A DNA stretch of 64,000 bases from Acetobacter suratthaniensis (GTDB lineage: Bacteria > Pseudomonadota > Alphaproteobacteria > Acetobacterales > Acetobacteraceae), in the NCBI RefSeq assembly GCF_017377745.1, contig NZ_JAFVMG010000013.1:1-64000 (forward strand), in the 5' to 3' direction. A model generated the notes under the pieces. It made no database searches, was not told the DNA's origin, and was given only the letters and a program-made list of their open reading frames with translations. The translations under genes were made by a program, and so were the position numbers. Positions 15,436 to 52,340 of this stretch are shown here, in pieces; within the stretch, counting starts at the first letter, position 1; each line of letters opens with the position of its first letter.

Positions 15436-15461
15436 AGTATGCCTCAGACCGTTGTGACGCC
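15436..15461 (-). promoter_or_regulatory. Transfer-regulon promoter motif (minus strand, 14929-15402 operon)
   Basis: Read on the minus strand: GCGTCACAAC (15461-15452), 10 bases, ATACTG (15441-15436). The CATACT would serve as the -10, about 35 bases before the start codon at 15402. It is one of nine copies of the same motif in the window. Confidence 0.7.
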
Positions 15462-15466
15462 CTTCG

Positions 15467-15481
15467 TTCGTCTTTTGTTCC
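15467..15481. promoter_or_regulatory. Second LexA-type box, between divergent transfer promoters
   Basis: GTTC at 15467-15470, seven bases, GTTC at 15478-15481, matching GTTC-N7-GTTC. It lies between the two outward-facing regulon motifs at 15436-15461 and 15488-15513, so LexA bound here could block both operons. The match is to the 8 fixed bases only; chance is possible, but the location is striking. Confidence 0.55.
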
Positions 15482-15487
15482 GCATAG

Positions 15488-15513
15488 CGTCACAACGCTT
15501 TGGCGCATGATGG
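15488..15513 (+). promoter_or_regulatory. Transfer-regulon promoter motif (plus strand, 15532 operon)
   Basis: GCGTCACAAC at 15488-15497, 10 bases, ATGATG at 15508-15513. CATGAT is the likely -10. A GAGAAGGAG ribosome-binding site and the ATG at 15532 follow. With the minus-strand copy it forms an 11-base perfect inverted repeat (15451-15461 and 15488-15498). Confidence 0.7.
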
Positions 15514-15531
15514 GGAGAGAAGGAGACCCCT

Positions 15532-16527
15532 ATGCGACATTCCCGTTATGCCATTCTGGCAGCTACCACCCTCGTAGCCCTCCCCATGCTGGCGCAGGCC
15601 CAGCAGTGCCCCTCCCCGCCACCTCTGGAGGCGACACACCCTCTGCTCCCGTCAGCGCCCGCAGAAACAGCGGCCACCAATGCTGGTCCTGTGCTGCGTC
15701 CCACGCCTGTCGTGCCCACGCCGAGACTCATCCTGCCCGCAGAAATTGCGGCGAGCCCCGCACTGACCCGCATCACCAGCACCGGGGCGACAGTCTATGA
15801 AATCGGGAACCGGGCGATGAATCACGGTCTTCAGGGCGTGTATGCGGTCAATGGCGACATCTTCCGGGTGTTCTATCTGACCCCGGACGGGCAGGCCCTG
15901 ATTGGGGGCGTTCTGTGGGAGCAAGACGGGCACAACGTCACGCGCGACACCATTGCGCCGATCAAAGGCGCCATCCCCACCGTAACCATCACTGGAGCAA
16001 AGCCGGGTGCGACACCGCCCGGACAGGCCGCTCCAGCCGCCAATGCGACACTGTCGCCAGCGCTGGCGAAACGGCTAAGTCAGGCGAGTTTGGGGCTGAT
16101 TGGACAGGACGGGCCGCCACGTCTGACGATGGTGATCGATCCGCTCTGCCCGTGGTCCATCCGCGCACTGGCCGAGCTGGAGCCGTTTGTCGCACGCGGC
16201 GTCCTCCAGCTCGCCCTGCTGCCCATCGCCATCAACGACCATGAAAATGGCGGCGCCAGCACCCCGGCCGCAACGGCGCTACTGTCAGTCGTTCCATTCG
16301 AGATGGAGGCGGCATGGCGGAAAATTATCGATCTACATCATGTCGCAGACGACATGCCCCGCACGGACGACGCGGCTCTCCACCTGCAGGGCAACATGGC
16401 TGTCGCTCATGCCATTGGCGTTCGGGGAACGCCCACGCTGATCTGGCGCGACAAGGCCGGGGTGTCGCATGTCACTGAAGGGGTGCCGCGCGACATAGGG
16501 CAACTGGTGCGGGAGCTGGGCCGATGA
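15532..16527 (+). CDS. Periplasmic thioredoxin-fold protein (DsbC/DsbG/TrbB-like), monothiol site
   Basis: A 331-residue exported protein with a signal peptide ending near LAQAQ (about residue 24). A Pro-rich linker and a DsbC-like N-terminal dimerisation-type region (about 75-150) are followed by a thioredoxin fold from about 190. The active site is CPWS (about residues 206-209), so the second Cys of CxxC is Ser. The cis-Pro loop GTPTLIW is intact. IncI plasmids encode a comparable DsbG-like protein, TrbB, with their transfer genes. It probably acts on disulfides of pilus or channel proteins. A monothiol site would favour isomerase or reductase rather than oxidase activity; this is inference. 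Confidence 0.75.
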   Translation: MRHSRYAILAATTLVALPMLAQAQQCPSPPPLEATHPLLPSAPAETAATNAGPVLRPTPVVPTPRLILPAEIAASPALTRITSTGATVYEIGNRAMNHGLQGVYAVNGDIFRVFYLTPDGQALIGGVLWEQDGHNVTRDTIAPIKGAIPTVTITGAKPGATPPGQAAPAANATLSPALAKRLSQASLGLIGQDGPPRLTMVIDPLCPWSIRALAELEPFVARGVLQLALLPIAINDHENGGASTPAATALLSVVPFEMEAAWRKIIDLHHVADDMPRTDDAALHLQGNMAVAHAIGVRGTPTLIWRDKAGVSHVTEGVPRDIGQLVRELGR

Positions 16528-18773: not shown

Positions 18774-18941
18774 CTAGTCATCTGAGGATCGCTCACGCAA
18801 AGTTCTGGCCGCCCGACGATTCAGGTGTTCTGACAACAAAGCCGCCAGCGTGGACTGCAATGGCGGCTGTCGCGTCTCGGGTATTGGGGATAGTCGTTCA
18901 CCAGTATTGGACGTACCGGAAACCTCGGGGGCAGCACACAT
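18774..18941 (-). CDS. Small unknown protein (55 residues)
   Basis: A 55-residue frame with a good ribosome-binding site (GGAG seven bases before ATG 18941). It lies about 47 bases downstream of a transfer-regulon motif on the same strand. The product starts MCAAPEVSGTSNTG and ends in a basic helix (ALLSEHLNRRAARTLRERSS). No family is recognised. The promoter motif and ribosome-binding site argue that it is expressed with the transfer genes. A 8-base inverted repeat, CTCCATAC/GTATGGAG (18949-18956 and 18990-18997), frames its leader. Confidence 0.45.
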   Translation of the reverse strand: MCAAPEVSGTSNTGERLSPIPETRQPPLQSTLAALLSEHLNRRAARTLRERSSDD

Positions 18942-18987: not shown

Positions 18988-19013
18988 CAGTATGGAGCTT
19001 TCGGTTGTGACGG
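18988..19013 (-). promoter_or_regulatory. Transfer-regulon promoter motif (minus strand, 18941 gene)
   Basis: Read on the minus strand: CCGTCACAAC (19013-19004), 10 bases, ATACTG (18993-18988). It faces the small genes 18941-18575. It was not expected from large genes, yet a small frame with a good ribosome-binding site starts right after it. Confidence 0.65.
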
Positions 19014-19768: not shown

Positions 19769-22069
19769 TCAAACATCGGTCTGTGTAATCGGCCGCACCT
19801 GTGCTGCCGTTGTCGTGTCCATTGCTGGAAGTGTACCACCAGAACGCCCCCCTCCACCACTTTTTTTTGCCTCGTCTTTCAATCCTTCGAGATACTGTGT
19901 GCCAATCTGTCGCCCTGTATCGGCCCCCTGCTGTACCGGCCGGGTCGCGGATTTCTCGAAGTCTTCCGCATCCACACGGCTGGCCGCACCAAACCCGACC
20001 ATGGAGGCCATATGATGTGGCAATGTCGTAATCAGCCGGAAGGATAATGTCGCGGTGGTCATCTCCATGGCCGAATACATGATGATCATGGCAATCAGGC
20101 CCACCCAGTTATCGGTGAGATAGCCATGATCCAACGTAAAGGTGGTGGCGACCAGAAAGCTTTTCATCAGCAGCCAGGATATGGCGGAAAACACCGTGTA
20201 GCTGAACACCATGCCGATCACCATCATCGACGGCCGGAAGAGGATGGTGAACAGCACCTCATAACCCCGCACACCTTTGCCGTGGATGCCATCGCCTGAG
20301 AACGTCATATGGGCGAGGAACCACAGAGGCGCATAGGCGACAGCCTCGACAACCAGCAGGAACCAGCCCGTAACGCCCGCAATCCAATACAGATAGGGCA
20401 TCATCGGCAGGACATAGGCCAGCGTGATCCCAGAGGTGAGCAGGAACAGACAGGCGGTAAAAATCACGGGTAGCAGGCGGGTAATCGTTCCGCTCAGAAA
20501 GGTCGCCACCGCGGCCGCGGCCGCGGCCGCACCTTCCCACTGGCCGGTGACGAAGGACACAATACCCGCGCCGACATCGACAGAAACACTTCCGGCTGCC
20601 ACTGACAGCGCAATGGCGGTCAGCGCCAGATGGATGAGAAGATGTCCCATACCGATCATGGCCCCAAGCGGATCCACCCAGTCCGAGCCAGAACTCCCCA
20701 TAACCAGATGGTTCATGATGAGTTCCAGCGTGCCAGGGCCGAAGTTCAGGTAATTCAGCACCTTCGTCCAGATCGCCGTGCTGTCTGAAGAGACATGGGC
20801 ATTGGCATACAGTCGCGGCGATGTGCTGTTTGGTGTGGGCGCATCGGCGGTCTGGAGTGCTGCATCCATTTTACCGAGATAGCTGGACACACTTTTGATG
20901 AAAGGTTGCAAATCCTGCCCAAGATATGGACCTGTGCCCGCCCATGAGGGTGCTACGACGGCAGGCGTGATCGAGGATACAGAAATAACTTCCGCGTTCA
21001 GGCGGGAAATTTCGAGATAGTAAGCCCCAAGCCCGGTCCAGCCGAGGGAGCGAAGCTCTGAGGTCGCGGAATTATCGCTCGCCGATGACCCGGCCGCGTT
21101 ACGGACGGCTGAGACCACACTGGAGGCGATGGTTGTGAGCTGGCCATTGAGGTAATTCGTCTGCGCTACGAACACCGAGTTGAGCGTGCCAAGCGTGGCA
21201 ATATCCCGGGTTTCCCAGAGAGAGGTTATGGTGTTCTGCAAACCGGAGCGGATATTGGTGGTCAGCGTTTTGAGGGACTCAATCTGCTGGCTACTGACCT
21301 CGCTGAAATCAATGCTCTGATATTCGGTGGTGGTTGCCGTCCTCACGGGCGTGCTGATGGACACCAGCCCGCAGGTCGGCATGGCTGAGCCATTGCCGTT
21401 CGCCATGTTGTAGGAGATGGAGACCGTGCCGTTGCCATCATCAATGATAGCCGGCTCGGGAACGAGGTCAGGGTTATTGGACGCCTTGTTGATCAGCGCC
21501 CGGCAGATCTCGCTCTCCATGACGCCCAGGACAACCTGACGTGATCCCGGGATTATGGGCGTTGCCAGAGGCAGGGCCTGAGGCCCCACCGCGTCCATGA
21601 CGACATTTTCTTCGATCACCGCCATGCCGATCGACGCCTTGGCGAAATTGACGATCAGGTTCTGGCCAAGAGAAAAGCCGTTGAGCACGGGGAGTAGCAT
21701 GATAACGCTGGCGACGCCGCGAATAGGCACCCAGCCATTGAAACTGGCGGAGAAGACTTTTCCGGTTTCAGCGGTTTTGTGGATCTGCGCCAGGATGGAA
21801 TACAGGATCCAGAACGCCGCCATAATGGCGACAAACGAGGTAAACCATTGCAGGAGCGTGCCGGTTGCGGTTTGCGCGGTGCCGTCCATAGGGAACAGGC
21901 TGTCGAGAACGCGCGAAGACCAGTCGTTTCCTCCTGTCAGGTCGGCCCAGCTGACGCTCTCAAAGCCGCTCGCAGCATAGGCTGGCCCTGCATGAAGCAG
22001 GACCAGCCCTCCCAGAAATGCCGCCAGAACGCATGACGGCCGCCGCGCCATTTTGGACACACCGCGCAT
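19769..22069 (-). CDS. traY: DotA/TraY-type polytopic inner-membrane protein
   Basis: A 766-residue membrane protein of the DotA/TraY family. A signal-like N terminus (ending near AGPAYAAS) is followed by a hydrophobic helix (about 75-95), a second region near 120-145, and a long periplasmic domain (about 160-470). A cluster of about six helices follows (470-700), including VLPMMPYLYWIAGVTGWFLL, a hallmark region. The C-terminal tail is polar. DotA/TraY is required for DNA transfer and in IncI systems is linked to entry exclusion. The Ala-rich run in the middle comes from an in-frame GGCCGC repeat at 20511-20531. It begins three bases after the upstream stop. Confidence 0.88.
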   Translation of the reverse strand: MRGVSKMARRPSCVLAAFLGGLVLLHAGPAYAASGFESVSWADLTGGNDWSSRVLDSLFPMDGTAQTATGTLLQWFTSFVAIMAAFWILYSILAQIHKTAETGKVFSASFNGWVPIRGVASVIMLLPVLNGFSLGQNLIVNFAKASIGMAVIEENVVMDAVGPQALPLATPIIPGSRQVVLGVMESEICRALINKASNNPDLVPEPAIIDDGNGTVSISYNMANGNGSAMPTCGLVSISTPVRTATTTEYQSIDFSEVSSQQIESLKTLTTNIRSGLQNTITSLWETRDIATLGTLNSVFVAQTNYLNGQLTTIASSVVSAVRNAAGSSASDNSATSELRSLGWTGLGAYYLEISRLNAEVISVSSITPAVVAPSWAGTGPYLGQDLQPFIKSVSSYLGKMDAALQTADAPTPNSTSPRLYANAHVSSDSTAIWTKVLNYLNFGPGTLELIMNHLVMGSSGSDWVDPLGAMIGMGHLLIHLALTAIALSVAAGSVSVDVGAGIVSFVTGQWEGAAAAAAAVATFLSGTITRLLPVIFTACLFLLTSGITLAYVLPMMPYLYWIAGVTGWFLLVVEAVAYAPLWFLAHMTFSGDGIHGKGVRGYEVLFTILFRPSMMVIGMVFSYTVFSAISWLLMKSFLVATTFTLDHGYLTDNWVGLIAMIIMYSAMEMTTATLSFRLITTLPHHMASMVGFGAASRVDAEDFEKSATRPVQQGADTGRQIGTQYLEGLKDEAKKSGGGGRSGGTLPAMDTTTAAQVRPITQTDV

Positions 22070-22072
22070 GGC

Positions 22073-24010
22073 TCAGGCCCCCATGGACGGGCTGGTGTCG
22101 CGGCCCTGCTCACGTCCCTGGGTGTGAGCCAAAAAACGCGCCTTTACCTTCTCCATGAGCCGTTCGAGCGCACCGCCGATACTTTTGATGAGGCTTTGCC
22201 CCGCATCACGGCCGGGCACATCTTCCATATCCTTGGCCTTATTACCAACCCGCTCTTCAAGCTGTATGACGGACTCTGCCTGCGCTGCCCCCCGCTCAGC
22301 AGCCTCGCTCTGGAGTGAGCCAAGATTGCGCCGCATATCTTGCAAGGTGTTTGCCAGATCGTTGTAAGGCTTGCCGACACGCTCGTCGGACAGCCGCAAT
22401 TTGGTGAACTCCTGCCACAGACCATGATGCTTGCCGCCCTCCCCCATGCTGGCCATCAGTTCTGCGGGTTCGAGCCCTTCCTGCCGAGCGGTGTCTTTCA
22501 TTTTCTGGAAGAAAGGTGCCGCTGCCTGTTTGAGGTCCTGATAATGCTGATCAGCCATACGGATATTGCCGTCCACCGTGGCGACCAGACTGTTGATCCG
22601 CCGTTGGTCAGACGCGGCCCCCTGATTGGCAAGCCATGATTTGGCAAAATTACCCACCTTGGAGACGGCATGCCCCGCCAGACTGGCGGTAGCAGCCTGC
22701 GCCGGTTGGGTGGCAGGTTGTGCCTGAGCGGAGGCTTGTGTTTGCTGTTCTTGCCCCGCCTCAGGTTCCACCTCTTTAGTCTGTGTCTGCTTCTGGGTTT
22801 TCGTTTGCCCCGTCTGCCTGTTGGCCTGCTCCGCCTGTTTCGGCTGCTGCTGGGTTCCTTGCTGCTGCTCAGGAGGCCTGTTCTGGGCTTCTTGCTGGTT
22901 GTTCATGTCTCTGTTGCGGATATCTTCTTCCTGATCTTGCGACATCCCTGCCTGCACAGCCTCCTCCCCGGCAGTCTGGCTGGCCTCCTGTGCAGACTGC
23001 GTAGCCTGAGCCTCCGGCTCCCCTCTCGTCGCATCGACTGTTTCGTCGGCACGGGACGAAGGGGCACCGTCGCCATCATTAAACGGAATATTCATCTCCG
23101 CATGTCCGGCCGACTGATTGTCGTAGTCCATGTCCTGCCCGCTGGCAGGACGTCCCGGCTCAACAGCCTCCTGTCGCGTTTCAGCCGCCGCCTCATGAGC
23201 GGTCGCCTGCGTGGTGCTTTCGGCAACAACGCTGCCGGCAACCGGCGACACCGGTTCCGCAACGCTTTCCATACCGGGCGGTGTTAGCTGCGCGGCATGA
23301 TCAGCGCTCATCCCGCGTGCGGCCAGTTCTTCGGCAGTCAGTTCATTGTCTCCCGCGACAACGAAGGACGGGGCCTCTTCGCGCTGCCCCAGATCCGCAA
23401 CGCTGGGCTCGATCTGGGCAACGCTCTCTGAGGCAATTTCAGGTGCGCCAACGGATGCCGATGGCGCCACGGCTGGCGCAGCCTGAGGGGCAGGAACAGG
23501 AGAAGGCTGTGGTGCGGTGACGACACCGGCCTGAGCTGCTCTGGCCTCAAGAGCGTTCACCCCCGCAGAAATCAGAAAAGAGGTCTGCTGCTCCGCAGGC
23601 AAACCGCCCAGCTCCACGCTGGCATTACGAATATCCGCGACAAGCTGGCGATCGCCCATGGCAGCGGTCTGCTGGAGCATGGAAGCCATCTGCGGGTTAC
23701 TCATACCGGGATACTGGCCCGCCATCGCATTCAGTCCCGCATGGAGAAGCGGCGACACCTGCACCACCTGTCCCGTACCGCTAAATTTCGGCCAGTCCTG
23801 CATGAGCCATGCAACATGGGTGGCGAATTTCGGATCGTTCTCCAAGGAGGGATCGGCTTCGAGTTGCTCCTGCAGGTCCTTGAGACGATCCGCCAGCCCG
23901 CGCTGGTCTTCCGACACGGATTGCTGCTGCTGCGCCATCGCCTGCAGCACGCCACTCATGGTTGAGGATGGGGTCGCCGTGGGCTGCACGGCCGAGAGTG
24001 TTTCGGACAT
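22073..24010 (-). CDS. Large Gln/Glu-rich protein of the transfer operon
   Basis: Not recognised. The 645-residue product has no signal peptide or membrane helix. The first 190 residues are helical (DQRGLADRLKDLQEQLEADP, VAWLMQDWPKF). The middle, about 200-440, is low-complexity and rich in Gln, Glu, Ala and Thr (QEAQNRPPEQQQGTQQQPKQ). The last 200 residues are again ordered, with GNFAKSWLANQGAASDQRRI, a helical bundle and a basic end. It lies between the TraW-like and DotA genes and has a good AAGGAAA ribosome-binding site. The disordered centre between two folded ends suits a scaffold or a secreted substrate. Function unknown. Confidence 0.65.
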   Translation of the reverse strand: MSETLSAVQPTATPSSTMSGVLQAMAQQQQSVSEDQRGLADRLKDLQEQLEADPSLENDPKFATHVAWLMQDWPKFSGTGQVVQVSPLLHAGLNAMAGQYPGMSNPQMASMLQQTAAMGDRQLVADIRNASVELGGLPAEQQTSFLISAGVNALEARAAQAGVVTAPQPSPVPAPQAAPAVAPSASVGAPEIASESVAQIEPSVADLGQREEAPSFVVAGDNELTAEELAARGMSADHAAQLTPPGMESVAEPVSPVAGSVVAESTTQATAHEAAAETRQEAVEPGRPASGQDMDYDNQSAGHAEMNIPFNDGDGAPSSRADETVDATRGEPEAQATQSAQEASQTAGEEAVQAGMSQDQEEDIRNRDMNNQQEAQNRPPEQQQGTQQQPKQAEQANRQTGQTKTQKQTQTKEVEPEAGQEQQTQASAQAQPATQPAQAATASLAGHAVSKVGNFAKSWLANQGAASDQRRINSLVATVDGNIRMADQHYQDLKQAAAPFFQKMKDTARQEGLEPAELMASMGEGGKHHGLWQEFTKLRLSDERVGKPYNDLANTLQDMRRNLGSLQSEAAERGAAQAESVIQLEERVGNKAKDMEDVPGRDAGQSLIKSIGGALERLMEKVKARFLAHTQGREQGRDTSPSMGA

Positions 24011-24027: not shown

Positions 24028-25200
24028 TTATGGATTGGGAACCGGCAGGGCGCCGGCAGAATGGCGACTGAGGGCCTCATCAGCCTCGATAGCGAGGCGT
24101 TTGGCCTCGGCCACGGCGGTCATTTCCTGTAGCTTGTAGGCGTTCCACAGCAGATAATTGCGCTGGGCGTCGAGCAGGGCGATCTGGATCAGAACGGACT
24201 TGTCAGACGACATGGCCTGCAGATCGGCCTGCCAGTCCGTACCGGAATACTTCCGGTTCACCTCCAGCTCGGTCTCCTCCCACGATGACCCCTTGTCGGT
24301 CACCGTAATCCCCTCACGCTGGGCTTCGGCTTTCTGGGCTGCTGTCAGCGTGACGGTCTCAGCGCGTTGGCTGAGCACATGATCGACAATCATGTGAGAC
24401 AGGTGCATCGCCGCATTATAGGAGCGGCGGAACGGCATGAGCTGCTGCCCCTGTGTCGAGGTAATCGCGCTGCCGCGCTGGGCGGCAGGAGCAACCGGTT
24501 CAATCAGGGTCACGGCATAGGCATTGGCCCGGTCAATCGCTTCCTGACCGGAATAAACAGGCGGCGTGAACAGGCTGGTTGCAGCCTCATCAGCACCTTT
24601 CATGGTGTCGCTGGCTATGGTGCAGAGACCAGCGTCAGCCTCAGCATCGTCGCAGTATTTGCCAAAATGCGCGTTATTGTTCGCCTGAGCCCCCTGCCCG
24701 CCGCCAGCCCATGACGGGGTGCCTTTTTCAGCTCGGGTGCGTGCGCCCTTGGCGACATCGAGCGCCACAGCGACATCATTGGACTGCCGCGCGGCTATGA
24801 CCTGCGCCTGTCCTCCTTCAAGGTTCAGACAGTCCTGACGATTGACCGCATGCAGGTCCTGTATTTCCGCGTGACGGACTTCTTTGGCGAGTAGGGCCTG
24901 CACCATGTTGTTGGCATCAGCAATCTGCTCCTGTGCGCCAACCTGCCCTTTGAGGTAATTGGTGATCTGGTTGATTCCCAGGCCCAGCTTGTCGTTCATA
25001 AGACCAAGAGTGCCGTTAATAACGCTCTTGGCGGTATTGGTAGCCGTGCTCAAGGCGGTCTGGGCTGTGGTGATCGCTGCCAGAATTGGCCCAATATCAA
25101 TGCCAAATGCCTGCGCCGGTACCGGAGCCGTAAACTGGCCGACCATAAAGGCGATAGTCAGCATAAGGGCGGCCACCAGCCGTGAAGGACGACGAGACAT
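24028..25200 (-). CDS. Secreted helical transfer protein (TraW/IcmX position)
   Basis: A 390-residue exported protein: signal peptide to about residue 32 (PVPAQAFG), then helices with periodic Thr/Ala/Leu (ILAAITTAQTALSTATNTAK). Two Cys pairs lie in the centre and the C-terminal half is charged and helical. In IncI and Dot/Icm systems a secreted TraW/IcmX protein is encoded next to dotA/traY, which this gene matches by order, size and signal peptide. Direct sequence recognition is weak, and a VirB5-like minor component is an alternative. Confidence 0.5.
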   Translation of the reverse strand: MSRRPSRLVAALMLTIAFMVGQFTAPVPAQAFGIDIGPILAAITTAQTALSTATNTAKSVINGTLGLMNDKLGLGINQITNYLKGQVGAQEQIADANNMVQALLAKEVRHAEIQDLHAVNRQDCLNLEGGQAQVIAARQSNDVAVALDVAKGARTRAEKGTPSWAGGGQGAQANNNAHFGKYCDDAEADAGLCTIASDTMKGADEAATSLFTPPVYSGQEAIDRANAYAVTLIEPVAPAAQRGSAITSTQGQQLMPFRRSYNAAMHLSHMIVDHVLSQRAETVTLTAAQKAEAQREGITVTDKGSSWEETELEVNRKYSGTDWQADLQAMSSDKSVLIQIALLDAQRNYLLWNAYKLQEMTAVAEAKRLAIEADEALSRHSAGALPVPNP

Positions 25201-25201: not shown

Positions 25202-25756
25202 TCAGTCGCCTCCCAACAGACCGAACGCTTTTGCGGCGTCGCTCAGCGTGTATCCGTTTGGTAATTGTAGCGCGCTACCAACATCCCAGTGGTTCGTGCC
25301 GGTTCCATTGGTTCCGGTACTTATCAGCGTGTCACCGCCGCCCCCGAAATTTACCGTTGGGCAAACTGTCCCAGAACCCAACCCCAGATCGAAGTTCGTA
25401 TCCGGCCCGGTGAGCGTTAATCCACATTCTGAAGCGCCTTGCATGCTGCTCCATGCAGCGCTCACCTGAGAACAGATTTTGCCCGCTACTTTTCTGGCTA
25501 TTGCAGCTGGATCAAGTCCGTCCGATACCAGATCCATCCCCGTCCCATTGTAAAAGCTGTCGAGACAGGTGAACTTGGTCACTGACTGCGGCATCTGGAT
25601 CAGAGAGTCATCCGCCTTCATCTGAGCGGCTGCCCCGGTTGCTGCCGCCTGAACCAGCGCCTGACAACCTTCTGAGGCCGCTGAGGCGACACTGGTGGAA
25701 AGCATCAGACCAGCGAATGCGACAAGGGGCAGGCGTGGCGTAAGCCCCCTTTTCAT
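25202..25756 (-). CDS. Exported Cys-containing protein
   Basis: Not recognised. A 184-residue product with a strong signal peptide (MKRGLTPRLPLVAFAGLMLS, cleavage near ASAAS). The mature part has about five Cys residues and a Gly/Thr-rich C-terminal stretch (VNFGGGGDTLISTGTNGTGT). I chose the ATG at 25756 because the signal peptide starts there and it overlaps the previous stop (ATGA). Part of the dotA operon, so probably periplasmic and linked to transfer. Confidence 0.6.
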   Translation of the reverse strand: MKRGLTPRLPLVAFAGLMLSTSVASAASEGCQALVQAAATGAAAQMKADDSLIQMPQSVTKFTCLDSFYNGTGMDLVSDGLDPAAIARKVAGKICSQVSAAWSSMQGASECGLTLTGPDTNFDLGLGSGTVCPTVNFGGGGDTLISTGTNGTGTNHWDVGSALQLPNGYTLSDAAKAFGLLGGD

Positions 25757-25914
25757 GATGTCGCCTCCCCGGCTACCGCCGCAGGCGACACGACAGCAGC
25801 GGGAGGGGCATCCCCCGGAAAGGTAATGGGATCGAGAATACGTCTGGCATAGGCCGGAGTGAGCCATTGCGGCGTAGGCGAAGCCCTTGAGGCCTGGGAT
25901 TGAGGTGCGGTCAT
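25753..25914 (-). CDS. Small first gene of the dotA operon
   Basis: A 53-residue protein beginning MTAPQSQASRASPTPQW, Pro/Ala-rich, with one short helix (TPAYARRILDPI). A ribosome-binding site AAGGACAG lies just before the ATG and the stop overlaps the next start by four bases. It is the first frame after the regulon motif at 25943-25968, which supports expression. Function unknown. Confidence 0.5.
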   Translation of the reverse strand: MTAPQSQASRASPTPQWLTPAYARRILDPITFPGDAPPAAVVSPAAVAGEATS

Positions 25915-25942: not shown

Positions 25943-25968
25943 CAGTATGGGCTCATCCGTTGTGACGG
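25943..25968 (-). promoter_or_regulatory. Transfer-regulon promoter motif (minus strand, dotA operon)
   Basis: Read on the minus strand: CCGTCACAAC (25968-25959), 10 bases, ATACTG (25948-25943). It lies 29 bases before the ATG at 25914 and would drive the whole operon down to 19021. Confidence 0.7.
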
Positions 25969-26041: not shown

Positions 26042-26332
26042 ATGCGCCCATCAGAAGTGCTAGCACTGCATCGTGACGCCGTTGTGCAACTGACGGCACG
26101 CTGGAATCTTACAAACCCTCGGGTGTTCGGCTCAGTTCTGAATTACCATGACAATGATCAAAGCGATCTGGATATTCTCGTTGATGCACCAAATGGTGCA
26201 ACATTGTTGGCTTTAGGCGGCCTGCAAAACGATCTCGAAGAGCTCCTTGGAGTGCGCGTTGATTTATTGACGCCTACTGAACTGCCCCTCAGATTTCGTG
26301 ACAAAGTTCTGGCTGAAGCCCGCCCAGTATGA
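26042..26332 (+). CDS. mntA: MntA-type nucleotidyltransferase antitoxin
   Basis: A 96-residue minimal nucleotidyltransferase. The motif GS-x(n)-DxD is seen as VFGSVLNYHDNDQSDLDILVD (about residues 29-49) and the third acidic residue as VDLLT. In HepT/MntA pairs this enzyme AMPylates the HEPN toxin and so silences it. GGAGAGGAG-like purines precede the ATG. The stop overlaps the hepT start (ATGA). Confidence 0.88.
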   Translation: MRPSEVLALHRDAVVQLTARWNLTNPRVFGSVLNYHDNDQSDLDILVDAPNGATLLALGGLQNDLEELLGVRVDLLTPTELPLRFRDKVLAEARPV

Positions 26333-26691
26333 GAGGTGCCTTTCGTTTTCAGGATTATTTGGTTCATATGCGCGATGCGCAAGCCGATGCGATCAGCTTC
26401 ATAGGCACTATGTCGCGTGATGAATTTCTTCAGGATCGGCGAACCCAGCAGGCAGTTGTGATGAGTCTGATCATCATCGGTGAAGCGGCATCCAAAATTA
26501 TCAATGCGTGGCCTGAAATCAAGGACACCCATCCAGACATTCCATGGGGTGCCATGCGTGGCATGCGCAATCGTATCGCGCACGGCTACTTTGCCGTCGA
26601 TTATGGCATGGTTTGGGACACGGTGAGACATGCTCTTCCGAGCCTGGAGCAACAACTGAATTCGTTATTGGTAAAAATTCAAAAAACTTAG
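26329..26691 (+). CDS. hepT: HepT-type HEPN toxin
   Basis: A 120-residue HEPN-domain RNase (DUF86 type). The catalytic RxxxxH motif is RNRIAH (about residues 81-86), followed by GYFAVDYGMVW, the Tyr of which is the usual AMPylation target. It is coupled to mntA by a four-base overlap. The pair separates the minus-strand dotA operon from the plus-strand dotI operon. Confidence 0.88.
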   Translation: MRGAFRFQDYLVHMRDAQADAISFIGTMSRDEFLQDRRTQQAVVMSLIIIGEAASKIINAWPEIKDTHPDIPWGAMRGMRNRIAHGYFAVDYGMVWDTVRHALPSLEQQLNSLLVKIQKT

Positions 26692-27035: not shown

Positions 27036-27362
27036 GTGCAGAGCCTGTTCCGGAGAATGACCCCTCCCACGCAACTGGCGTGGCCTTTTCCTACTGAAAC
27101 GCAACCGGGCAGGGGTTCAGGCTTTCGCAAGCCTCCGACAACAACTCCCGCAGGCTGGTCTAGCGACGAAGAAATCTATCTCGCGCGCGCCTATCCCTCG
27201 ATAACGGCAGCGCCTGTTATTTCAAAACTGATCGGGCGTACCCTTGGTGCCGTACGCCGCAAGGCTCAACGTCTTGGGCTCCGGCGACCGCTACGCGGTC
27301 GGGCGGCTAACGCCGCCTTTGCATTGAAGTCCCCCCCCCCCCCCCGCACAATCTGGGGATAA
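27036..27362 (+). CDS. DNA-binding protein, first GcrA/Myb-like domain, frame broken by polyC
   Basis: A 108-residue frame from GTG 27036. Residues about 40-85 form a GcrA/SANT-like helix-turn-helix: GWSSDEEIYLARAYPSI, then VISKLIGRTLGAVRRKAQRL and GLRR. The frame runs into 15 C (27331-27345) and stops at 27362. With 16 or 13 C it would continue in frame into the second DNA-binding domain encoded to 27820, giving one protein of about 261 residues. It directly precedes dotI, so it may be a transfer regulator. Possible explanations are phase variation, ribosomal slippage, or a sequencing error in the C run. Confidence 0.6.
   Translation: MQSLFRRMTPPTQLAWPFPTETQPGRGSGFRKPPTTTPAGWSSDEEIYLARAYPSITAAPVISKLIGRTLGAVRRKAQRLGLRRPLRGRAANAAFALKSPPPPRTIWG
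27331..27345 (+). repeat. Homopolymer of 15 C inside a regulator gene
   Basis: Fifteen consecutive C. Runs of this length mutate readily by slippage. Here the change decides whether two DNA-binding domains are made as one protein. Confidence 0.8.
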
Positions 27363-27466
27363 CTTCAACTGTCTCTCACGCCTTTTCTGATTATTTTTCT
27401 TCTGTCCAGCGCACCGCATCCGGCCGTCTGATCTGGAACAGTACGGCGATCGATCTTCTCGCCGAT

Positions 27467-30698: not shown

Positions 30699-30724
30699 CC
30701 GTCACAACCGAATGAGCGATACTG
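30699..30724 (+). promoter_or_regulatory. Transfer-regulon promoter motif (dotF operon)
   Basis: CCGTCACAAC at 30699-30708, 10 bases, ATACTG at 30719-30724. GATACT is the likely -10; a CTGACA lies at 30693-30698. The AAGGAG ribosome-binding site and ATG 30749 follow. Confidence 0.7.
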
Positions 30725-32434: not shown

Positions 32435-32458
32435 TTTCATCAAAGGAACATACACGTC

Positions 32459-36500: not shown

Positions 36501-36510
36501 GGCCTGAACA

Positions 36511-36536: not shown

Positions 36537-36541
36537 GCCTC

Positions 36542-43509: not shown

Positions 43510-44622
43510 ATGGCCATCGAAATCCTTTTTGACGATGCCCCCGGTGAAGACAGTGAAGGTCGACTGGGCCTCTGGCTCGACCAGCGGATCGGCTTCTCTC
43601 TTGGCCGAAGGCTGGCCCTGTACCAGAACCTCGCCAGAAAGCTGCGCCAGAACGAAATGATCAACCGCGTCCTGCTGCGCCGGGCGGAACAGGCCGGAAA
43701 ATTCGGCAACCGCTGGGAAGCCCGCATGCTCAGGCGGATTGAACGCCTCCTCACCGATGAAGGCGCGTCGTTCGCCTACACGCTGCAGCCCTTCGTGCCA
43801 GATGATGAGTTCACCATGCTGCTCTCGGGGGAACAGGCGGATGACCTGCCCTCGGCCCTCGACATGATCTGCGACACCCGCACCCGTGTCGCAGGCCTCG
43901 CCAGAGAGTTCCGGACTGCCTGGGTGGAACCCCTTCTATACGTCATCATGGCCGTTGCGGCCCTCGCCATTACGGCGCGTTTCGCACTCCCAAAAATCGA
44001 GCAGGGCTTAAGAGAGAGCGGCACGTCAAGCGCTGCCCTGTCGCTCATGCTCAGCCTGAGCCAGATCGGCACGGTTCCGGCGACCATTGCCTCATTTGCG
44101 GGATTGGCTGGCATTTTTCTGGCCATCCGCTGGAGCCTTCCACGCATGACCGGACGGCTGCGCGTCTGGCTGGAATATATCCCGCCATGGTCGATCTATC
44201 GCGACATGCACGGTTACCTGTGGATCTGCAGCTTCCTCGCACAGTGCAAGATCGGCATCGCCGATGTCGATGCTCTGGAAAACCAGGCGCAGGACAGTCG
44301 TTCTCCGTGGCTCCGTAGCCGCCTGAACACCGTACAGGCGCTCATGGTCAACGAAGGCGTCACCCTGCCGCGCGCGATGGAACTGTCGGGCCTGAATTTT
44401 CCAAGTCCCGAGATCATCCGCGAAATCGACGACATCTGGGGCGACGAGGGCGACTACGACACCCTGCTCACCCAGAGCAGACTCTGGGTTGACCGGATCG
44501 AAGACCGGACGCGCACGCAGATCAAGGTCATGCGCGGCGTCACAACCATTAGCGCCATACTCCTCGTCGGACTGATCATGCTGCTCGAAATCCAGATCGG
44601 GCAGGACTCACTCCCACATTGA
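43510..44622 (+). CDS. pilR: PilR, inner-membrane pilus platform protein (GspF/PilC type)
   Basis: A 370-residue platform protein with a cytoplasmic N-terminal part, a pair of transmembrane regions at about residues 140-165 and 185-215, and a last one near 345-365. The GspF-type duplicated layout is visible. It holds the extension ATPase at the membrane. Its last part also contains a copy of the transfer-regulon motif (44537-44562). Confidence 0.85.
   Translation: MAIEILFDDAPGEDSEGRLGLWLDQRIGFSLGRRLALYQNLARKLRQNEMINRVLLRRAEQAGKFGNRWEARMLRRIERLLTDEGASFAYTLQPFVPDDEFTMLLSGEQADDLPSALDMICDTRTRVAGLAREFRTAWVEPLLYVIMAVAALAITARFALPKIEQGLRESGTSSAALSLMLSLSQIGTVPATIASFAGLAGIFLAIRWSLPRMTGRLRVWLEYIPPWSIYRDMHGYLWICSFLAQCKIGIADVDALENQAQDSRSPWLRSRLNTVQALMVNEGVTLPRAMELSGLNFPSPEIIREIDDIWGDEGDYDTLLTQSRLWVDRIEDRTRTQIKVMRGVTTISAILLVGLIMLLEIQIGQDSLPH
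44537..44562 (+). promoter_or_regulatory. Internal transfer-regulon motif before the pilin gene
   Basis: GCGTCACAAC at 44537-44546, 10 bases, ATACTC at 44557-44562, inside pilR. It lies about 80 bases before pilS and would give extra transcription of the major pilin. It must also encode pilR residues, so chance is harder to exclude than for the other copies. Confidence 0.5.
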
Positions 44623-44640: not shown

Positions 44641-45147
44641 ATGAAAGATCTTATCGGTTTCGTCGTTGTAACCGTTCTCTCGCTCCTTGGAATCGCCGGT
44701 GTCGTCACGGGCGCCAGGGCCGGCATCAACGCCTATAACGTCTATGAGGCCAGCTCCATCGAAGCCGAGATGAGCAGCAATATCCTGACCTACCTGAAGC
44801 TCAATGGCTCAACGAACGCATCAGGACTGAGCAACTCCGCCGCCATCAACGCCAACCTGGTGCCCGACAATCTTCCTGTCAGCGGCACAACGCTCAAAGG
44901 CCCATGGAACGGCTCAACCGTAACCCTGTCGAGCCTGTCCAGTGGCGGATTTCAGTCTACGTGGGCAGGCGTCGGAGCCGCTGGCTGCGCCAAATTCGCT
45001 GCATCACAACACCCCTCTGGCGGCCTGACCGTCAATGGCGTGCGTATCACCATTGCAGCCTCGAACGATAACAGCCTGGGCATTGCATCGGCCTGCAACG
45101 CCGCCAGCGGCAATACCGCAACCATTGTTTTCATGTATCCACTGTAA
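44641..45147 (+). CDS. pilS: PilS, major type IVb-like pilin
   Basis: A 168-residue pilin. A very short leader, MKDLIG, is followed by a hydrophobic helix (FVVVTVLSLLGIAGVVTG), then a Ser/Thr/Gly-rich head. Two Cys residues (about 120 and 144) are placed for the C-terminal disulfide loop of type IVb pilins. The usual Glu at position 5 of the mature protein is missing. A GGAG ribosome-binding site precedes ATG 44641. It forms the thin pilus used for mating in liquid. Confidence 0.82.
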   Translation: MKDLIGFVVVTVLSLLGIAGVVTGARAGINAYNVYEASSIEAEMSSNILTYLKLNGSTNASGLSNSAAINANLVPDNLPVSGTTLKGPWNGSTVTLSSLSSGGFQSTWAGVGAAGCAKFAASQHPSGGLTVNGVRITIAASNDNSLGIASACNAASGNTATIVFMYPL

Positions 45148-47001: not shown

Positions 47002-47715
47002 ATGACAGCACTCCCTCCCTGTGGGCAGATGGCCGCCACCTATTACCATGTCGCACCTGCGCAAATGGAAACCGTGATGGCGCACGCGAGTGACAGCAGC
47101 ATCGGTCCCATGGGTATCCAGCCCGAATGGCTTCCGATCCTCACACGCGCAGGCTTTGACCCCGAGAAGGTCAGAACCGACGCGTGCATCAACATCGCGG
47201 CCGGCGCGTGGATCCTCGCATGGAGTGGCACCAGCACGACAGCGCATCGCGAGCCCCCAACCGCCGGTAAAACCCCGCTACCCCCACCGTCCCACCCGCT
47301 TCCGGCCGACCTCAAAACCTGCGCACTGGCCGCAGCCCGGCGCTACCATGTCCATGAACAGCTCTTCCTCGCCGTGCTGGCGACAGAGGGCGGCCGGGTT
47401 GGACAGATCGTCCGCAACCGCAATGGCAGCTACGACATGGGGCCAGCCCAGATCAATTCCATCCATCTGCCCGAACTGGCCAGACTGGGGATCAGCCGCG
47501 AACAGGTCATCAATGACGGCTGCCTCAACCTGCAGATCGGGGCATGGATCCTCGCCCGCGCACTCGATGGACAAAGCCCGTCCAACCCGGGCGAGTTCTG
47601 GCGTCGCGTGGGCAATTATAACTCCGCAACCCCCATCCCCAACGTCACCTATCAGGCCAAAGTCTGGCACCATCTGGTGGCCAACACGGCGTCACAACGG
47701 ATGAGCGCACAATGA
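47002..47715 (+). CDS. pilT: PilT-type lytic transglycosylase with a degenerate extra domain
   Basis: A 237-residue protein with two lysozyme-like units. The C-terminal one (about residues 105-195) has the catalytic Glu in VLATEGGRVG, then SYDMGPAQINSIHL and GCLNLQIGAWILARAL. The N-terminal one (about 5-75) repeats the same frame: YYHVAPAQMETVMAHA, GPMGIQPEWL, ACINIAAGAWILAW. It lacks the catalytic Glu and is shortened. No typical signal peptide is visible. It is the last gene of the pilus block and its end carries the dotD promoter motif. Confidence 0.78.
   Translation: MTALPPCGQMAATYYHVAPAQMETVMAHASDSSIGPMGIQPEWLPILTRAGFDPEKVRTDACINIAAGAWILAWSGTSTTAHREPPTAGKTPLPPPSHPLPADLKTCALAAARRYHVHEQLFLAVLATEGGRVGQIVRNRNGSYDMGPAQINSIHLPELARLGISREQVINDGCLNLQIGAWILARALDGQSPSNPGEFWRRVGNYNSATPIPNVTYQAKVWHHLVANTASQRMSAQ
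47689..47714 (+). promoter_or_regulatory. Transfer-regulon promoter motif (dotD operon)
   Basis: GCGTCACAAC at 47689-47698, 10 bases, ACAATG at 47709-47714. CACAAT is the likely -10. It ends six bases before ATG 47720, predicting a leaderless dotD transcript, as for trbG. Confidence 0.7.
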
Positions 47716-47719
47716 GGGA

Positions 47720-48148
47720 ATGAACAACCCGTCATTCCCCAGAGGTCTCATGCTCCTCGCGCCCATTGCTCTTGCCGCCTGTCACCATCCCCCGCCCCCC
47801 CAGATCCCCTTCGGCCAGCAGATGGCCATCCTCGACGCGCAGGCCAACGCACTGGCTGCAACCCGCTATCCCGTGCGCCGCCCGGGCTCCGTACTGCCTG
47901 CCGAACTGGAACGCCCCGTCCGGTGGCACTGGTCGGGCACACTGCGCGACGGTCTGGGCGAGATCGCCAGCCAGATCGGCTATCACCTCATCATGGACGA
48001 CACCGGCCCCGGCCCTGTTGTCGCCATCCGTGAGACCACGGCGACAGAGGCCAGCCTCATCGACGAACTCAGCCTCGCCGCAGGCCCCCGCTACCGTGTG
48101 GACATCGACGTGCCCACCCACGAGATCAGGGTGTCGCATCATGGCTAA
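47720..48148 (+). CDS. traH: DotD/TraH outer-membrane lipoprotein
   Basis: A 142-residue predicted lipoprotein (lipobox LAAC, Cys about residue 21). The mature part has the DotD-like domain: RPVRWHWSGTLRDGLGEIAS, QIGYHLIMDDTGPGPVV and a final IDVPTHEIRVSHH strand. DotD pairs with DotC in placing DotH in the outer membrane. The ATG at 47750 would leave only 10 residues before the Cys, so 47720 is preferred. Confidence 0.85.
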   Translation: MNNPSFPRGLMLLAPIALAACHHPPPPQIPFGQQMAILDAQANALAATRYPVRRPGSVLPAELERPVRWHWSGTLRDGLGEIASQIGYHLIMDDTGPGPVVAIRETTATEASLIDELSLAAGPRYRVDIDVPTHEIRVSHHG

Positions 48149-49070: not shown

Positions 49071-50215
49071 CCAGCGCCAACAGCCTGCAACGCGACACCG
49101 GGCCCGGGCAGATCCTCTTCGTCATCGGGGCCTCCCTGTTCCTGCTCTGTGTCGCAGGCTTCCTCCTGTGGGAGGTAGCACACACACAGATCGTCATGGC
49201 CGTGCTGTTCGAGCAGCGCCTGATCCTGCTGGCCGCCTCCCTGTTCACCGACAGCTACGCCTCCCTGCTCGACAGGATGGCGCAGGCCGACCCCCATAAG
49301 GTGAGTGCTGCGACACTATGGCAGCTTCTGGGCCTCACAGGTTTCCTGACCCTCCTGCCGGTACTGATCCTGTTCGGCGTTATGGGTTTTTTCTGTGTGA
49401 AACGCGCCCCACGCGGCCTGTACCGCGCCCAGTTCGGCTATGATGGCATGAAGCATGCGCTCGCACAGATCCATCCTGTTGGACAGGCGTGGCTCGGCTA
49501 CAACGCACAGCTGCGCGAACCCCCGCCGCCATCCGCACCCCTCAGGCCCATGGATCCGTTCCTCCAGCCAGACGAATGGCTCGCCCGCTATGGTGGCGAC
49601 AAACCCGGCACCGAGGCCTACGCGCAGGCGGCCCGGAATGCGCTGGCCGCACAGCTCGGCACGCCCTGGACAGGCCCGCAGGCCCTCAGCCCTGTCGAAC
49701 AGTGCCTGTTCATGGCCTTCACTCTTGTCTGCGCACGGCGCGGCGACGAGGCCGGGAACCTGCTCAACGCCCTGTCGCACTCCCTCTCCGGGCAATGGAA
49801 ACAGGGCGAAATCACCGCCCCGCTCACCATCCCACCCCGGACGGTGGAAGAGTTTCGCAAAACCCTGTCCGCAGGCGACTGGCAGGTCGGCATCCAGATC
49901 GTCGGCCATCACGCCTGGTCGCGTACCGCGCTGATGACGCTCCTTCAGGTGGCCCGCCAGAAGGCGGGCGTCCTCAACGCCAGCCTGTTCGCCATGATCC
50001 AGCTCGTCGATCGCGACCTCTGGCTCATTCTCAGTGCCCTGCCCTACCCCATGCCCGGCCGCCCCATGCACGCGGTCATCACCACGGCCTGCACCGAAGC
50101 CGCCGGAGCACTGGAACACTGGCGGGCTGAGTGTCGCACGGGCCAGCCACTCCCCGAGCCGCATGTCAGCGCGACACTCGATACCCTGCTCAGCACCGAC
50201 CGGAAGCCGTCATGA
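49067..50215 (+). CDS. trbA: DotM/IcmP/TrbA coupling-complex protein
   Basis: A 382-residue membrane protein: transmembrane helices at about residues 17-37 and 88-108, then a cytoplasmic domain. The C-terminal half has the DotM core HHAWSRTALMTLLQVARQK, then LVDRDLWLILSALPY and ALEHWRAECRTGQPLPEP. DotM holds the coupling ATPase DotL at the membrane and in Legionella binds substrates. It overlaps dotC and the next gene by four bases each. Confidence 0.87.
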   Translation: MTSANSLQRDTGPGQILFVIGASLFLLCVAGFLLWEVAHTQIVMAVLFEQRLILLAASLFTDSYASLLDRMAQADPHKVSAATLWQLLGLTGFLTLLPVLILFGVMGFFCVKRAPRGLYRAQFGYDGMKHALAQIHPVGQAWLGYNAQLREPPPPSAPLRPMDPFLQPDEWLARYGGDKPGTEAYAQAARNALAAQLGTPWTGPQALSPVEQCLFMAFTLVCARRGDEAGNLLNALSHSLSGQWKQGEITAPLTIPPRTVEEFRKTLSAGDWQVGIQIVGHHAWSRTALMTLLQVARQKAGVLNASLFAMIQLVDRDLWLILSALPYPMPGRPMHAVITTACTEAAGALEHWRAECRTGQPLPEPHVSATLDTLLSTDRKPS

Positions 50216-50583
50216 CCACGCCTGATACACAGCTCGGAATCCTCTATCTTGCCGCCCGCAGCACCGCACCAGAACTGCGGAGCTGGGTGCTCAGAACCTA
50301 CATGCTGCGCGACGGCCTGCTGGACAGCGCCATGGCGACCTCCCTCGCACAGCTCGACCAGGTTTACCGGTTCGATCTCTACTACGGCTACGACGTGGCC
50401 CACGCCCCCGACGCCCTGAGACAGCCCATCACCGCCTATGTCGCGGCTCTGCGACAGGGCTCCAGCGCCCTGCCGGGTGAAGCGCCGTCACACCACCTGT
50501 TCAAGGTCCATCACCGCATCGAGACCCTCATGCTGGGACCGATCCGCACCCCCCAGACACCTCCTGAAGGAAAAGACGCATGA
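50212..50583 (+). CDS. Unknown small protein between dotM and dotB
   Basis: Not recognised. A 123-residue soluble helical protein (SWVLRTYMLRDGLLDSAMAT, LDQVYRFDLYYGYDVAHAP, HHLFKVHHRIETLMLG). The ATG 50212 overlaps the dotM stop and its own stop overlaps dotB, so it is tightly coupled to the ATPase genes. Adapter-like roles as for IcmS/IcmW are possible by size and place only. Confidence 0.6.
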   Translation: MTTPDTQLGILYLAARSTAPELRSWVLRTYMLRDGLLDSAMATSLAQLDQVYRFDLYYGYDVAHAPDALRQPITAYVAALRQGSSALPGEAPSHHLFKVHHRIETLMLGPIRTPQTPPEGKDA

Positions 50584-51695
50584 ACGACATCGTGGAGCGC
50601 CTGCGCGCCCTGCCCCCACACGCCAGTCTCAACACCATCCTGATCGGCTGTGTCGAAATGGGGGCATCCCGTATTCACATGCAGACGGACACGTCCCTCA
50701 AGATCCGTGTGCATGGCCGCAATTATACCGTGCCGGGCCTGCGCTGGACCGGCCGTGAAGTCTCCGAAGCCCTGAGGACGATGTATAAATCCGACACAGG
50801 CCCGTCACGGCTGAGCAAGGGTGAGGCCATCGACACCAGCTACATTATCTGGCCCGACCGCCGCAAACGACGCTACGGCTTTCGTGTGAACGCAGTCGCC
50901 ACGACCATCGGCTCAAATGACGGGATCGGGATTGTGCTGCGCCCACTCCCCGAAAAACCGACCCCACTTGAAGAACAGCATGTCGAACAGCGCCTGCTCG
51001 AAGCACTGGACGGAGACACTGGCGGCTATCTGATCTGCGGCGTTACCGGCAGTGGCAAGACAACCCTGATGGGGGGCGTCACCCGCCAGCGCCTCGAAGA
51101 TCCTGACTGCCATTGCGACATCGTCGAGGGGGCCGCCCCGCTGGAACTGTTTTACGACCTGATCGAACAGAACAACGCCAGTATTCAGCAAACGGAAATT
51201 CCCCGCCAGATGGCGACCTTCCCCGGCTTCATCCGGGCGGCCATGCGTGAGGAACCCACCGATATCAATGTGGGCGAGTGTCGCGATCCCGAAACCATGG
51301 AAGCGACCATTCAGGCGATTATCTCGGGTCACCGGACCATGACGTCCGTTCACACCAATGACCCGGCCGCGACAATCCGCCGTGTCGTCTCGCTGTGCCC
51401 GGCGTCCGATCGCGACAGTCTCGCCATCGCTCTGGTTGATAACCTCAAACTCATCGTCAACCAGCGTCTGCTCCGCTCAACCGATGGCAGACGCACCGCC
51501 ATCCGCTCCTTCCTGCCCTTCAACCGCAGGATCCGCGAAGCCCTGCTCGACGCGCCACAGTCCCGCTGGCCCAACATGGTGCGCGGTTTCGTGGAAGAGC
51601 ACGGCCAGACCTTCGAACAATCCATCAAGGACGTCCACGCCCAAGGCCGCATCAGCGACGAAATCGCAGACCGCGCCATGAAGGAACTGCACTGA
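50580..51695 (+). CDS. traJ: DotB/TraJ secretion ATPase (PilT-like)
   Basis: A 371-residue hexameric ATPase of the DotB/PilT group. Walker A is GVTGSGKT (about residues 154-161). The Asp box and Walker B follow as MREEPTDINVGECRDPETM, and the His box as SGHRTMTSVHTNDPAATIRR. DotB works with DotO at the base of the channel. It overlaps its neighbours (ATGA and TGATG). Confidence 0.92.
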   Translation: MNDIVERLRALPPHASLNTILIGCVEMGASRIHMQTDTSLKIRVHGRNYTVPGLRWTGREVSEALRTMYKSDTGPSRLSKGEAIDTSYIIWPDRRKRRYGFRVNAVATTIGSNDGIGIVLRPLPEKPTPLEEQHVEQRLLEALDGDTGGYLICGVTGSGKTTLMGGVTRQRLEDPDCHCDIVEGAAPLELFYDLIEQNNASIQQTEIPRQMATFPGFIRAAMREEPTDINVGECRDPETMEATIQAIISGHRTMTSVHTNDPAATIRRVVSLCPASDRDSLAIALVDNLKLIVNQRLLRSTDGRRTAIRSFLPFNRRIREALLDAPQSRWPNMVRGFVEEHGQTFEQSIKDVHAQGRISDEIADRAMKELH

Positions 51696-51943
51696 TGTGG
51701 CGTCACTCCTCAAGCCCCGTTTACTTCTTCGTCGTCGACTGCCGCTGCCTGCTGGGCATGGTGCTGTGGCTGGCCCACATGCGCCTATGGACCTTCATCA
51801 CGGCCATCGTCGTCACCCTCCTGTTCGGGTTTCTGGCGTGGATGGGTCTCACCCTGCCTGTCGCATTCCGTATGGCGCGGGTACTTCTGATCGGCCCGCA
51901 CCGGCCGCGCCTGCCCCGCTGGAAGCAAAGGGACTACGCATGA
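51695..51943 (+). CDS. traK: IcmT/TraK small membrane protein
   Basis: An 82-residue protein of the IcmT pattern: MWRHSSSPVYFFVVDCR, then two hydrophobic helices around LWTFITAIVVTLLFGFLAW, and a basic C terminus (RPRLPRWKQRD). TraK is needed for IncI transfer. It is next to dotB as in IncI plasmids and overlaps it and the next gene. Confidence 0.78.
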   Translation: MWRHSSSPVYFFVVDCRCLLGMVLWLAHMRLWTFITAIVVTLLFGFLAWMGLTLPVAFRMARVLLIGPHRPRLPRWKQRDYA

Positions 51944-52338
51944 TCCCCCTCGAACGGCTCATCGACGCCCTCGCCAGCCTGCTGGACAACGGACCGTATC
52001 GCATCGCCCTGAGTGCGACAGGTGAGGAGGCGTTCACACCACGGCGCCTGCTGGCCCCCGACTGCCTGCTCCCCGTCCTCATGCGGATGGCCGAGGAAAC
52101 ATGGAAAACCCGCGCCGGGCAAGTCAGTTTCGGGCTCGCGATCAGGCCGGACAGCAACGCCCTGTGCGGGCAGCGCCTGCACGCCGTGCATCACGCCCCC
52201 CTCTCTCTGATTATCCTGTGCACCGATCAGACCCTCCAGAAGGTCGCGGATGCACAGGGCACCATCCTGCTCGACGCCCTTGAGCGACACGCCAACACCC
52301 TGTGCGCCGTCCCGGCGTCACAACCCATGCCCGTATGA
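51940..52338 (+). CDS. Unknown protein after icmT
   Basis: Not recognised. A 132-residue soluble alpha/beta protein (MIPLERLIDALASLLDNGPY, VSFGLAIRPDSNALCGQRLH, TILLDALERHANTLCAVP). ATG 51940 overlaps the icmT stop (ATGA). Its end contains the motif that would drive the next operon. It could correspond by place to TraL of IncI plasmids, but I see no clear similarity. Confidence 0.6.
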   Translation: MIPLERLIDALASLLDNGPYRIALSATGEEAFTPRRLLAPDCLLPVLMRMAEETWKTRAGQVSFGLAIRPDSNALCGQRLHAVHHAPLSLIILCTDQTLQKVADAQGTILLDALERHANTLCAVPASQPMPV

Positions 52339-52340
52339 TC
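52315..52340 (+). promoter_or_regulatory. Transfer-regulon promoter motif (dotL operon)
   Basis: GCGTCACAAC at 52315-52324, 10 bases, ATGATC at 52335-52340. TATGAT is the likely -10, 24 bases before ATG 52364, with AGGAG between. Confidence 0.68.

Follow-up and report, generated by a model that had tools for sequence, protein, structure and literature searches.

GcrA, a sigma70 cofactor of Alphaproteobacteria, has a single helix-turn-helix (HTH) followed by a sigma-binding C-terminal domain, and its target is methylated GANTC. At the MotA-dependent middle promoters of T4, an activator box near -30 replaces the -35 element and keeps a fixed distance to the -10 element. In phase-variable contingency loci, a long coding poly-C or poly-G tract of varying length puts the halves of a gene in or out of frame. 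According to the cited sections, GcrA contacts promoter DNA and also binds the primary sigma factor, at its region 2 (PMC6917491, PMC7987155), and MerR-type activators act between a retained -35 element and the -10 element across a spacer of 19-20 bp (PMC8113463, PMC7722741). For an IncA/C plasmid, one plasmid protein is described as governing the transfer genes (PMC4605294). Here we describe nine promoter-like sites in the conjugative transfer region of a 64-kb stretch of Acetobacter suratthaniensis DNA (the window, meaning the whole stretch analysed). On balance, we favour the reading that the nine sites serve as promoters in a plasmid-wide regulon whose most likely activator is a multi-HTH GcrA-like protein of the same plasmid, with lineage-specific codes and possible phase switching.

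Nine sites in the transfer region

The box CGTCACAAC occurs in nine exact copies in the window, compared with a mean of 0.44 and a largest count of three across 100 shuffles, none of which reached nine. Each of the nine also fits the full 26-mer SCGTCACAACN10AYRMTS without a mismatch, and in each the right half follows ten bases after the box. When up to three mismatches were allowed, the 26-mer was found at 15 places with 10.0 expected, a count reached in 9 of 100 shuffles; the excess is therefore made up of the nine exact sites. The original prediction, which was made from the letters of the window, had listed nine sites, all of which are present. Seven of its positions are exact, and two shift by one base to hold the full 26-mer (15435-15460 and 15487-15512). 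It had also taken the right half for a good -10 element. The hexamer is indeed sigma70-like, and its frame starts one base earlier than proposed, which leaves a gap of 9 bp between box and hexamer.

As predicted, the sites point towards genes. The leftmost one (GCGTCACAAC-N9-CATACTG, 15435-15460, minus strand) precedes a gene at 14929-15402 (-) and a transglycosylase gene at 14195-14932 (-), and the site at 15487-15512 (+) precedes a DsbC-like gene (15532-16527). The site at 18988-19013 (-) faces a conserved 55-codon open reading frame (ORF; 18774-18941, -, start at 18941) with an ortholog in pAOF1, a plasmid of Acetobacter orientalis whose DotO is 91% identical to that of the window. A 53-codon ORF (start at 25914) is faced by the site at 25943-25968 (-) and opens a series of leftward tra genes at 25202-25867, 24028-25200, 22073-24010 and 19769-22069 (DotA/TraY), all on the minus strand. 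The remaining sites lie on the plus strand. The first of them (30699-30724) stands before 30749-31861 and the genes running to dotO, and the second (36511-36536) before a trbG-like gene whose ATG lies 6 nt past the hexamer. The site at 44537-44562 does lie within the 3' end of pilR, before pilS (44641-45147), as had been claimed for the ninth copy. A dotD-like gene (47720-48148) follows the site at 47689-47714, again with its ATG 6 nt past the hexamer, and the site at 52315-52340 precedes an ORF with a likely start ATG at 52364 and the gene for the coupling protein (52794-55046).

Promoters of orthologous genes were paired by eye with those of pAOF1, of pGOX1 from Gluconobacter oxydans 621H (DotO 55% identical) and of A. 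vaccinii. Boxes were found at the corresponding places in all three for the sites at 15435, 15487, 25943 (position 13269 of the examined stretch in pGOX1), 30699, 47689 and 52315, and the arrangement at 36511 was found likewise. The counterpart of the 44537 site has one box change in pAOF1, is present in A. vaccinii, and in pGOX1 keeps the box with GATACA as hexamer. Between the window and pAOF1, the nine orthologous sites show 2 changes in 81 box positions, 26 in 81 positions of the 9-bp spacer and 4 in 54 hexamer positions (box versus spacer, Fisher p=4e-7). With few changes in box and hexamer and many in the spacer, the pattern is one of selection on box and hexamer and not of recent duplication.

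Promoter architecture

In 14 plasmids or contigs, A and T of the hexamer were found at offset 19 for 128 of 231 boxes, compared with 3-15 at other offsets and 8.6 expected. Judged by this pattern, the right half behaves as a -10 element. The core common to the lineages is TCRC, or CCAC in A. vaccinii. The original prediction had reported no consistent -35 element, and this was confirmed: across the 128 sites no TTGACA enrichment was seen upstream of the box, the match being 1.73 of 6 where a 17-bp spacer would put it. Scored against TTGACA, the box core gives 3.62 of 6, but this 7-base core sits 11 bp from the hexamer. GANTC is absent from the conserved box and hexamer columns of the 14 plasmids or contigs.

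An ATG lies within 32 nt of the hexamer at 94 of the 128 sites, and at 6-7 nt in 19 of these, as if the transcript would begin at the start codon. In the window, the two genes with an ATG 6 nt past the hexamer (36536-36544 and 47714-47722) might give leaderless transcripts, and this layout recurs in the matching genes of pAOF1, pGOX1 (trbG-like) and A. vaccinii. pGOX1 is unmentioned in the main text of the primary transcriptome of G. oxydans 621H (PMC5756330).

Lineage-specific boxes in related plasmids

The DotO/IcmB ATPase gene of the window (33375-36500, +) was the query for finding related plasmids. Conservation in plasmids with diverged coding parts, to which the original prediction had referred as a check, was seen in most of them: related alphaproteobacterial plasmids keep the spacing and change the box by lineage. 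pGOX1 carries GCACTCACA 13 times with 0.37 expected, and at most places these sites precede counterparts of the window's genes. A. vaccinii carries ACCCACAAC plus variants. An unbiased search started from no given box and took every 7-mer together with A...T, with the offset free between 7 and 33. In 13 of 18 gene-bearing regions it returned an in-register box above the best of 12 Markov simulations, in which coding structure is not reproduced. The boxes fall in one register in the window and pAOF1 (CGTCACA), pGOX1 (ACTCACA) and A. vaccinii (ACCCACA, rank 4). Four Roseomonas plasmids yielded CGTTCGC/GTTCGCG, TTCGCAC, TTCGCAT and GTTCGCA, and further boxes came from G. oxydans H24 (AGTCGCA), Lichenicola (CGTTCGC), Methylocella (GTTCGCG), Methylocapsa (ATTCGCG) and G012 (GTCACAA, rank 3). 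A plain k-mer count recovered the pGOX1 box and missed those of A. vaccinii and Roseomonas, which were recovered once a -10 element at free offset was added.

Boxes thus vary even among members of one genus and among G. oxydans plasmids, and those of two plasmids from a single strain differ slightly. As a control, the accessory stretches of pAOF1 and the flanks of the window contained no in-register TCRC word among the seven words listed, and all twelve counts in the three control stretches gave p >= 0.23. The box patterns used for the register tests and the by-eye tests came from an earlier scan or were chosen by eye. In Kozakia, GTCGCATGATG-like words stand ahead of several genes, without significant register. 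The A. ascendens plasmid has annotated type I-F CRISPR-Cas genes beside its transfer region (32356-40094 of the examined stretch).

Extent of the regulon

The genome of the window's strain (G000; 3.09 Mb in 77 contigs, with the window on contig C5) contains 21 strict matches: nine in the window, two further along C5 and ten on C10, C13, C16 and C31. The earlier statement that no copy lies outside the transfer region is correct inside the window and fails for the genome, where 12 more strict copies occur. Neighbours of the boxes in the genome include a MobF relaxase gene, a ParA/MinD-like gene, a PAPS-reductase-like gene and genes beside UvrD helicase/TOPRIM; the regulon therefore exceeds transfer proper and covers the plasmid backbone. 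Near-duplicate backbone stretches on C13/C16 and C5/C10 suggest that a pair of related plasmids, both using this box, coexists in the source host.

pAOF1 has 18 sites (13 exact, five with one core mismatch) at 12-41 and 128-168 kb. Between 49 and 128 kb it holds one exact core without a hexamer and one mismatched core (CGTCAAAAC) with A...T at the offset. Among 49 genomes of the genus, 3-21 copies occur in eight, one copy in four and none in 37, and the reversed-pattern control gave 0. Matches were found in 10 of 299 genomes of the family, namely G000 and nine with a single copy, and the control gave single copies in six. From this distribution, the motif belongs to a plasmid family and not to host chromosomes; no excess of sites was seen off plasmid contigs in the genome or elsewhere in the family. 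dotO is present in 9 of the 11 genomes examined. The other two (G013 and G016), which have boxes and no regulator match, look like carriers of plasmids that lost transfer.

The probable regulator gene beside dotI

Box-bearing plasmids encode a multi-HTH protein beside dotI. In the window this gene (27036-27820) is split. Its first half (27036-27362, +) contains HTH 1, is homologous to the intact proteins of pGOX1 (gene GOX_RS00540), A. vaccinii and genome G022 (P0003), and has no Pfam match alone. The second half, with HTH 2 and the C-terminal part, is an ORF in another frame (27346-27820, +). The first start codon in that frame lies at 27467, inside HTH 2, and none precedes HTH 2, so separate expression of the second half is unlikely. 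A single-protein search returned three homologs and an alignment search at least 21, with 8000 candidates scored. The regulator is present in G000, G009, G012, G015, G022, G028, G030 and G048 (A. vaccinii), and weakly in G037 and G001.

The family profile of the regulator matches GcrA (PF07750, E=1.6e-7), and its three-helix DNA-binding domain is similar to that of GcrA by profile and by structure (PDB 5yiv, 7ye1; compared with VIA-align). The family thus has a GcrA-type DNA-binding HTH. The second half in the window matches PF07750 at 27434-27604 as the second best of the genome, weakly (17.7 bits, E=0.007). The structure model of P0003 shows two confident HTHs, at 42-78 and 133-169, and not the single HTH of GcrA; it also has a C-terminal hairpin.

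A run of 15 C (27331-27345, +) lies in the linker between HTH 1 and HTH 2 and is the only homopolymer of at least 10 in the window; no other C or G run of this length occurs in the window or in the examined loci of pAOF1. In the P0003 model the tract falls in a disordered linker. Both the window and pAOF1 have 15 C, with HTH 1 and HTH 2 in different frames on either side. The tract measures 20 C in G009, 12 in G012, 14 in G015 and 11 in G022 and G028, and two contigs of G030 end in it. All three frame states occur among seven sequences (11-20 C), five of them out of frame. The G022 gene reads through in frame to give the intact 258-aa P0003, and G028 is in frame across the tract and broken upstream. 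In the regulator genes of 14 other plasmids, homopolymers reach at most 7. As in contingency loci, the tract is a coding homopolymer that varies in length between isolates and shifts the frame.

Two small ORFs at 26042-26691, in the interval that separates the regulator from the leftward tra genes, resemble a nucleotidyltransferase/HEPN toxin-antitoxin pair by eye. This pair, a LysR gene (8571) and a FecI-like fragment (63815) were set aside by eye as candidate regulators. MucR genes occur on pGOX1 and on the plasmids of A. vaccinii and Komagataeibacter. Elsewhere in the window, the genes at 2869-8470 match by eye, in order, the imuB/DNA polymerase cassette annotated on pAOF1, and 60104-63997 resembles a cluster of a TonB receptor, a FecR-like protein and a FecI-like extracytoplasmic function (ECF) sigma factor.

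Discussion

In the proposed mechanism, the box at about -30 to -22 would substitute for the -35 element, with a sigma70-type -10 element (NANNNT, often CATACT) at a fixed distance. The activator would be the multi-HTH GcrA-like protein encoded beside dotI; if it works like GcrA, it would bind sigma70 RNA polymerase and touch the box in the spacer. Box and regulator differ between plasmid lineages, which would give each lineage its own promoter code. Judged from its sequence, phase variation is the natural reading of the poly-C tract. In the Acetobacter lineage the tract sets the HTHs in or out of frame, out of frame in the window copy, and slipped-strand phase variation may thereby switch the regulon. 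A broader statement falls somewhat short of probable, namely that mating-pair-formation type I (MPF-I) plasmids of Alphaproteobacteria share multi-HTH GcrA-like activators replacing the -35 element, with a private box per lineage that keeps them separate even within one cell, and that Acetobacter conjugation is phase-variable through poly-C.

Several results weigh against this reading. In G012, GTCACAA ranked third in the unbiased search, behind TTGACGG/ATTGACG words, and strict CGTCACAAC sites numbered 0. TATTCAC in G015 (-6.1 vs -6.9) and TTCGCGC in Methylosinus (-6.5 vs -6.6) ranked top, yet were not above the 12 simulations. The search also missed A. ascendens (rank 12), Komagataeibacter (rank 11) and Beijerinckia (outside the first 12), where boxes chosen by eye gave p=0.012, 3e-4 and 9e-5, respectively. 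Kozakia yielded nothing from the search and p=0.12 in the by-eye test; dotI-dotG are not annotated in its examined stretch, which also showed no regulator gene. PF07750 also matched in 7 of 14 control genomes, above the cut-off in two, so the weak second match in the window counts little alone. Only one of the 15 regulator proteins scanned (Beijerinckia, 27.2 bits) exceeds the Pfam cut-off of 26.9 bits, and 14 fall below it. As to the tract, the out-of-frame state of five of the seven sequences and the further frame break upstream in G028 would fit a gene split by decay or assembly noise, without switching. This is possible, though not the likelier account: eight assemblies share the position of a tract of 11-20 C (G030, whose contigs break off in it, is included), the tract is kept in G012 and G015 with DotO 67% and 63% identical to that of the window, G022 yields intact P0003, and C or G runs of this length are otherwise absent from the window and the examined pAOF1 loci.

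The original prediction had named a dedicated activator or an alternative sigma factor as the reader of the sites. There is strong support for a dedicated promoter class and a site-specific factor, and of the two an activator fits better because the hexamer is sigma70-like, the gap is 11 bp, no sigma region 2 was found in the proteins scanned, and a GcrA-like gene lies beside dotI. An alternative sigma factor reading box and right half as -35 and -10 would explain the fixed spacing and the resemblance of the box core to a weak TTGACA, and the Roseomonas p3-AD3 regulator protein reaches the Sigma70_r4_2 cut-off (25.7 bits). It is nevertheless very unlikely, since to our knowledge an 11-bp gap is too short for known sigma factors, the Pfam scan, which covered part of the plasmid ORFs, found no sigma region 2, and sites are in no excess elsewhere in the genome or family. 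That the activator is another DNA-binding protein of the plasmid is unlikely. A 176-aa winged-helix protein and a 153-aa HTH_3 protein are conserved wherever they were looked for (pAOF1, the window's genome, pGOX1 and A. vaccinii), and the winged-helix gene itself carries a box. Of 15 plasmids with annotation, 9 list an HTH regulator immediately upstream of the GcrA-like gene. However, in pAOF1, pGOX1 and A. vaccinii no HTH gene other than the GcrA-like one was seen in the interval between the divergent tra operons. We consider it decidedly unlikely that the box is the operator of a plasmid-wide repressor, possibly the same protein, at otherwise ordinary promoters. Plasmids often repress backbone promoters jointly in a KorA-like logic, and a protein sitting at -30 to -22 could stand in the way of RNA polymerase. 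However, the 128 sites have no -35 element upstream of the box, and box and hexamer are held to one base register, which steric repression does not need. A host-encoded activator is most improbable. Contig C67 of the genome does encode a complete GcrA (109.9 bits), but the differences between boxes within a genus and even between plasmids of one strain, the lack of GANTC in the conserved columns and the lack of excess sites off plasmid contigs argue against it.

If the GcrA-like protein acts as proposed, a master regulator of conjugation would be identified for a little-studied plasmid group, together with a new promoter class of GcrA-type cofactor plus sequence box and no -35 element. The lineage-wise box changes would offer more than a dozen natural regulator/site pairs for reading the recognition code and for testing how co-resident plasmids avoid crosstalk. 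A switching poly-C tract would make plasmid transfer a stochastic, phase-variable trait. In the open-licence literature on GcrA with plasmids, conjugation or mobile elements, on pGOX1/Gluconobacter transcription and on Acetobacteraceae MPF-I regulation, the promoter class and the regulator are undescribed among the matches listed; for phase variation of plasmid transfer, the matches listed held no described case.

Comparison with known systems

The plasmid regulator resembles GcrA in its three-helix DNA-binding domain. Unlike GcrA, it has at least two HTHs and is plasmid-borne, and its proposed box is not GANTC and varies by plasmid. A GcrA-type gene on a mobile element is likewise described for phiCbK-like phages, five of six of which carry GcrA homologs according to the cited section; there the element is a phage and not a plasmid, and the homologs are detectable members of PF07750 (PMC3556154). 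In contrast to MerR-type promoters, the plasmid box promoters show no -35 element upstream of the box. Their layout is like that of T4 MotA middle promoters, a likeness in promoter layout alone. With the IncA/C master regulator, which belongs to a different protein family and has a different promoter layout, the proposed regulator would share the role of a single plasmid protein over transfer genes. Compared with known contingency loci, the poly-C tract found here sits in the proposed regulator of conjugation.

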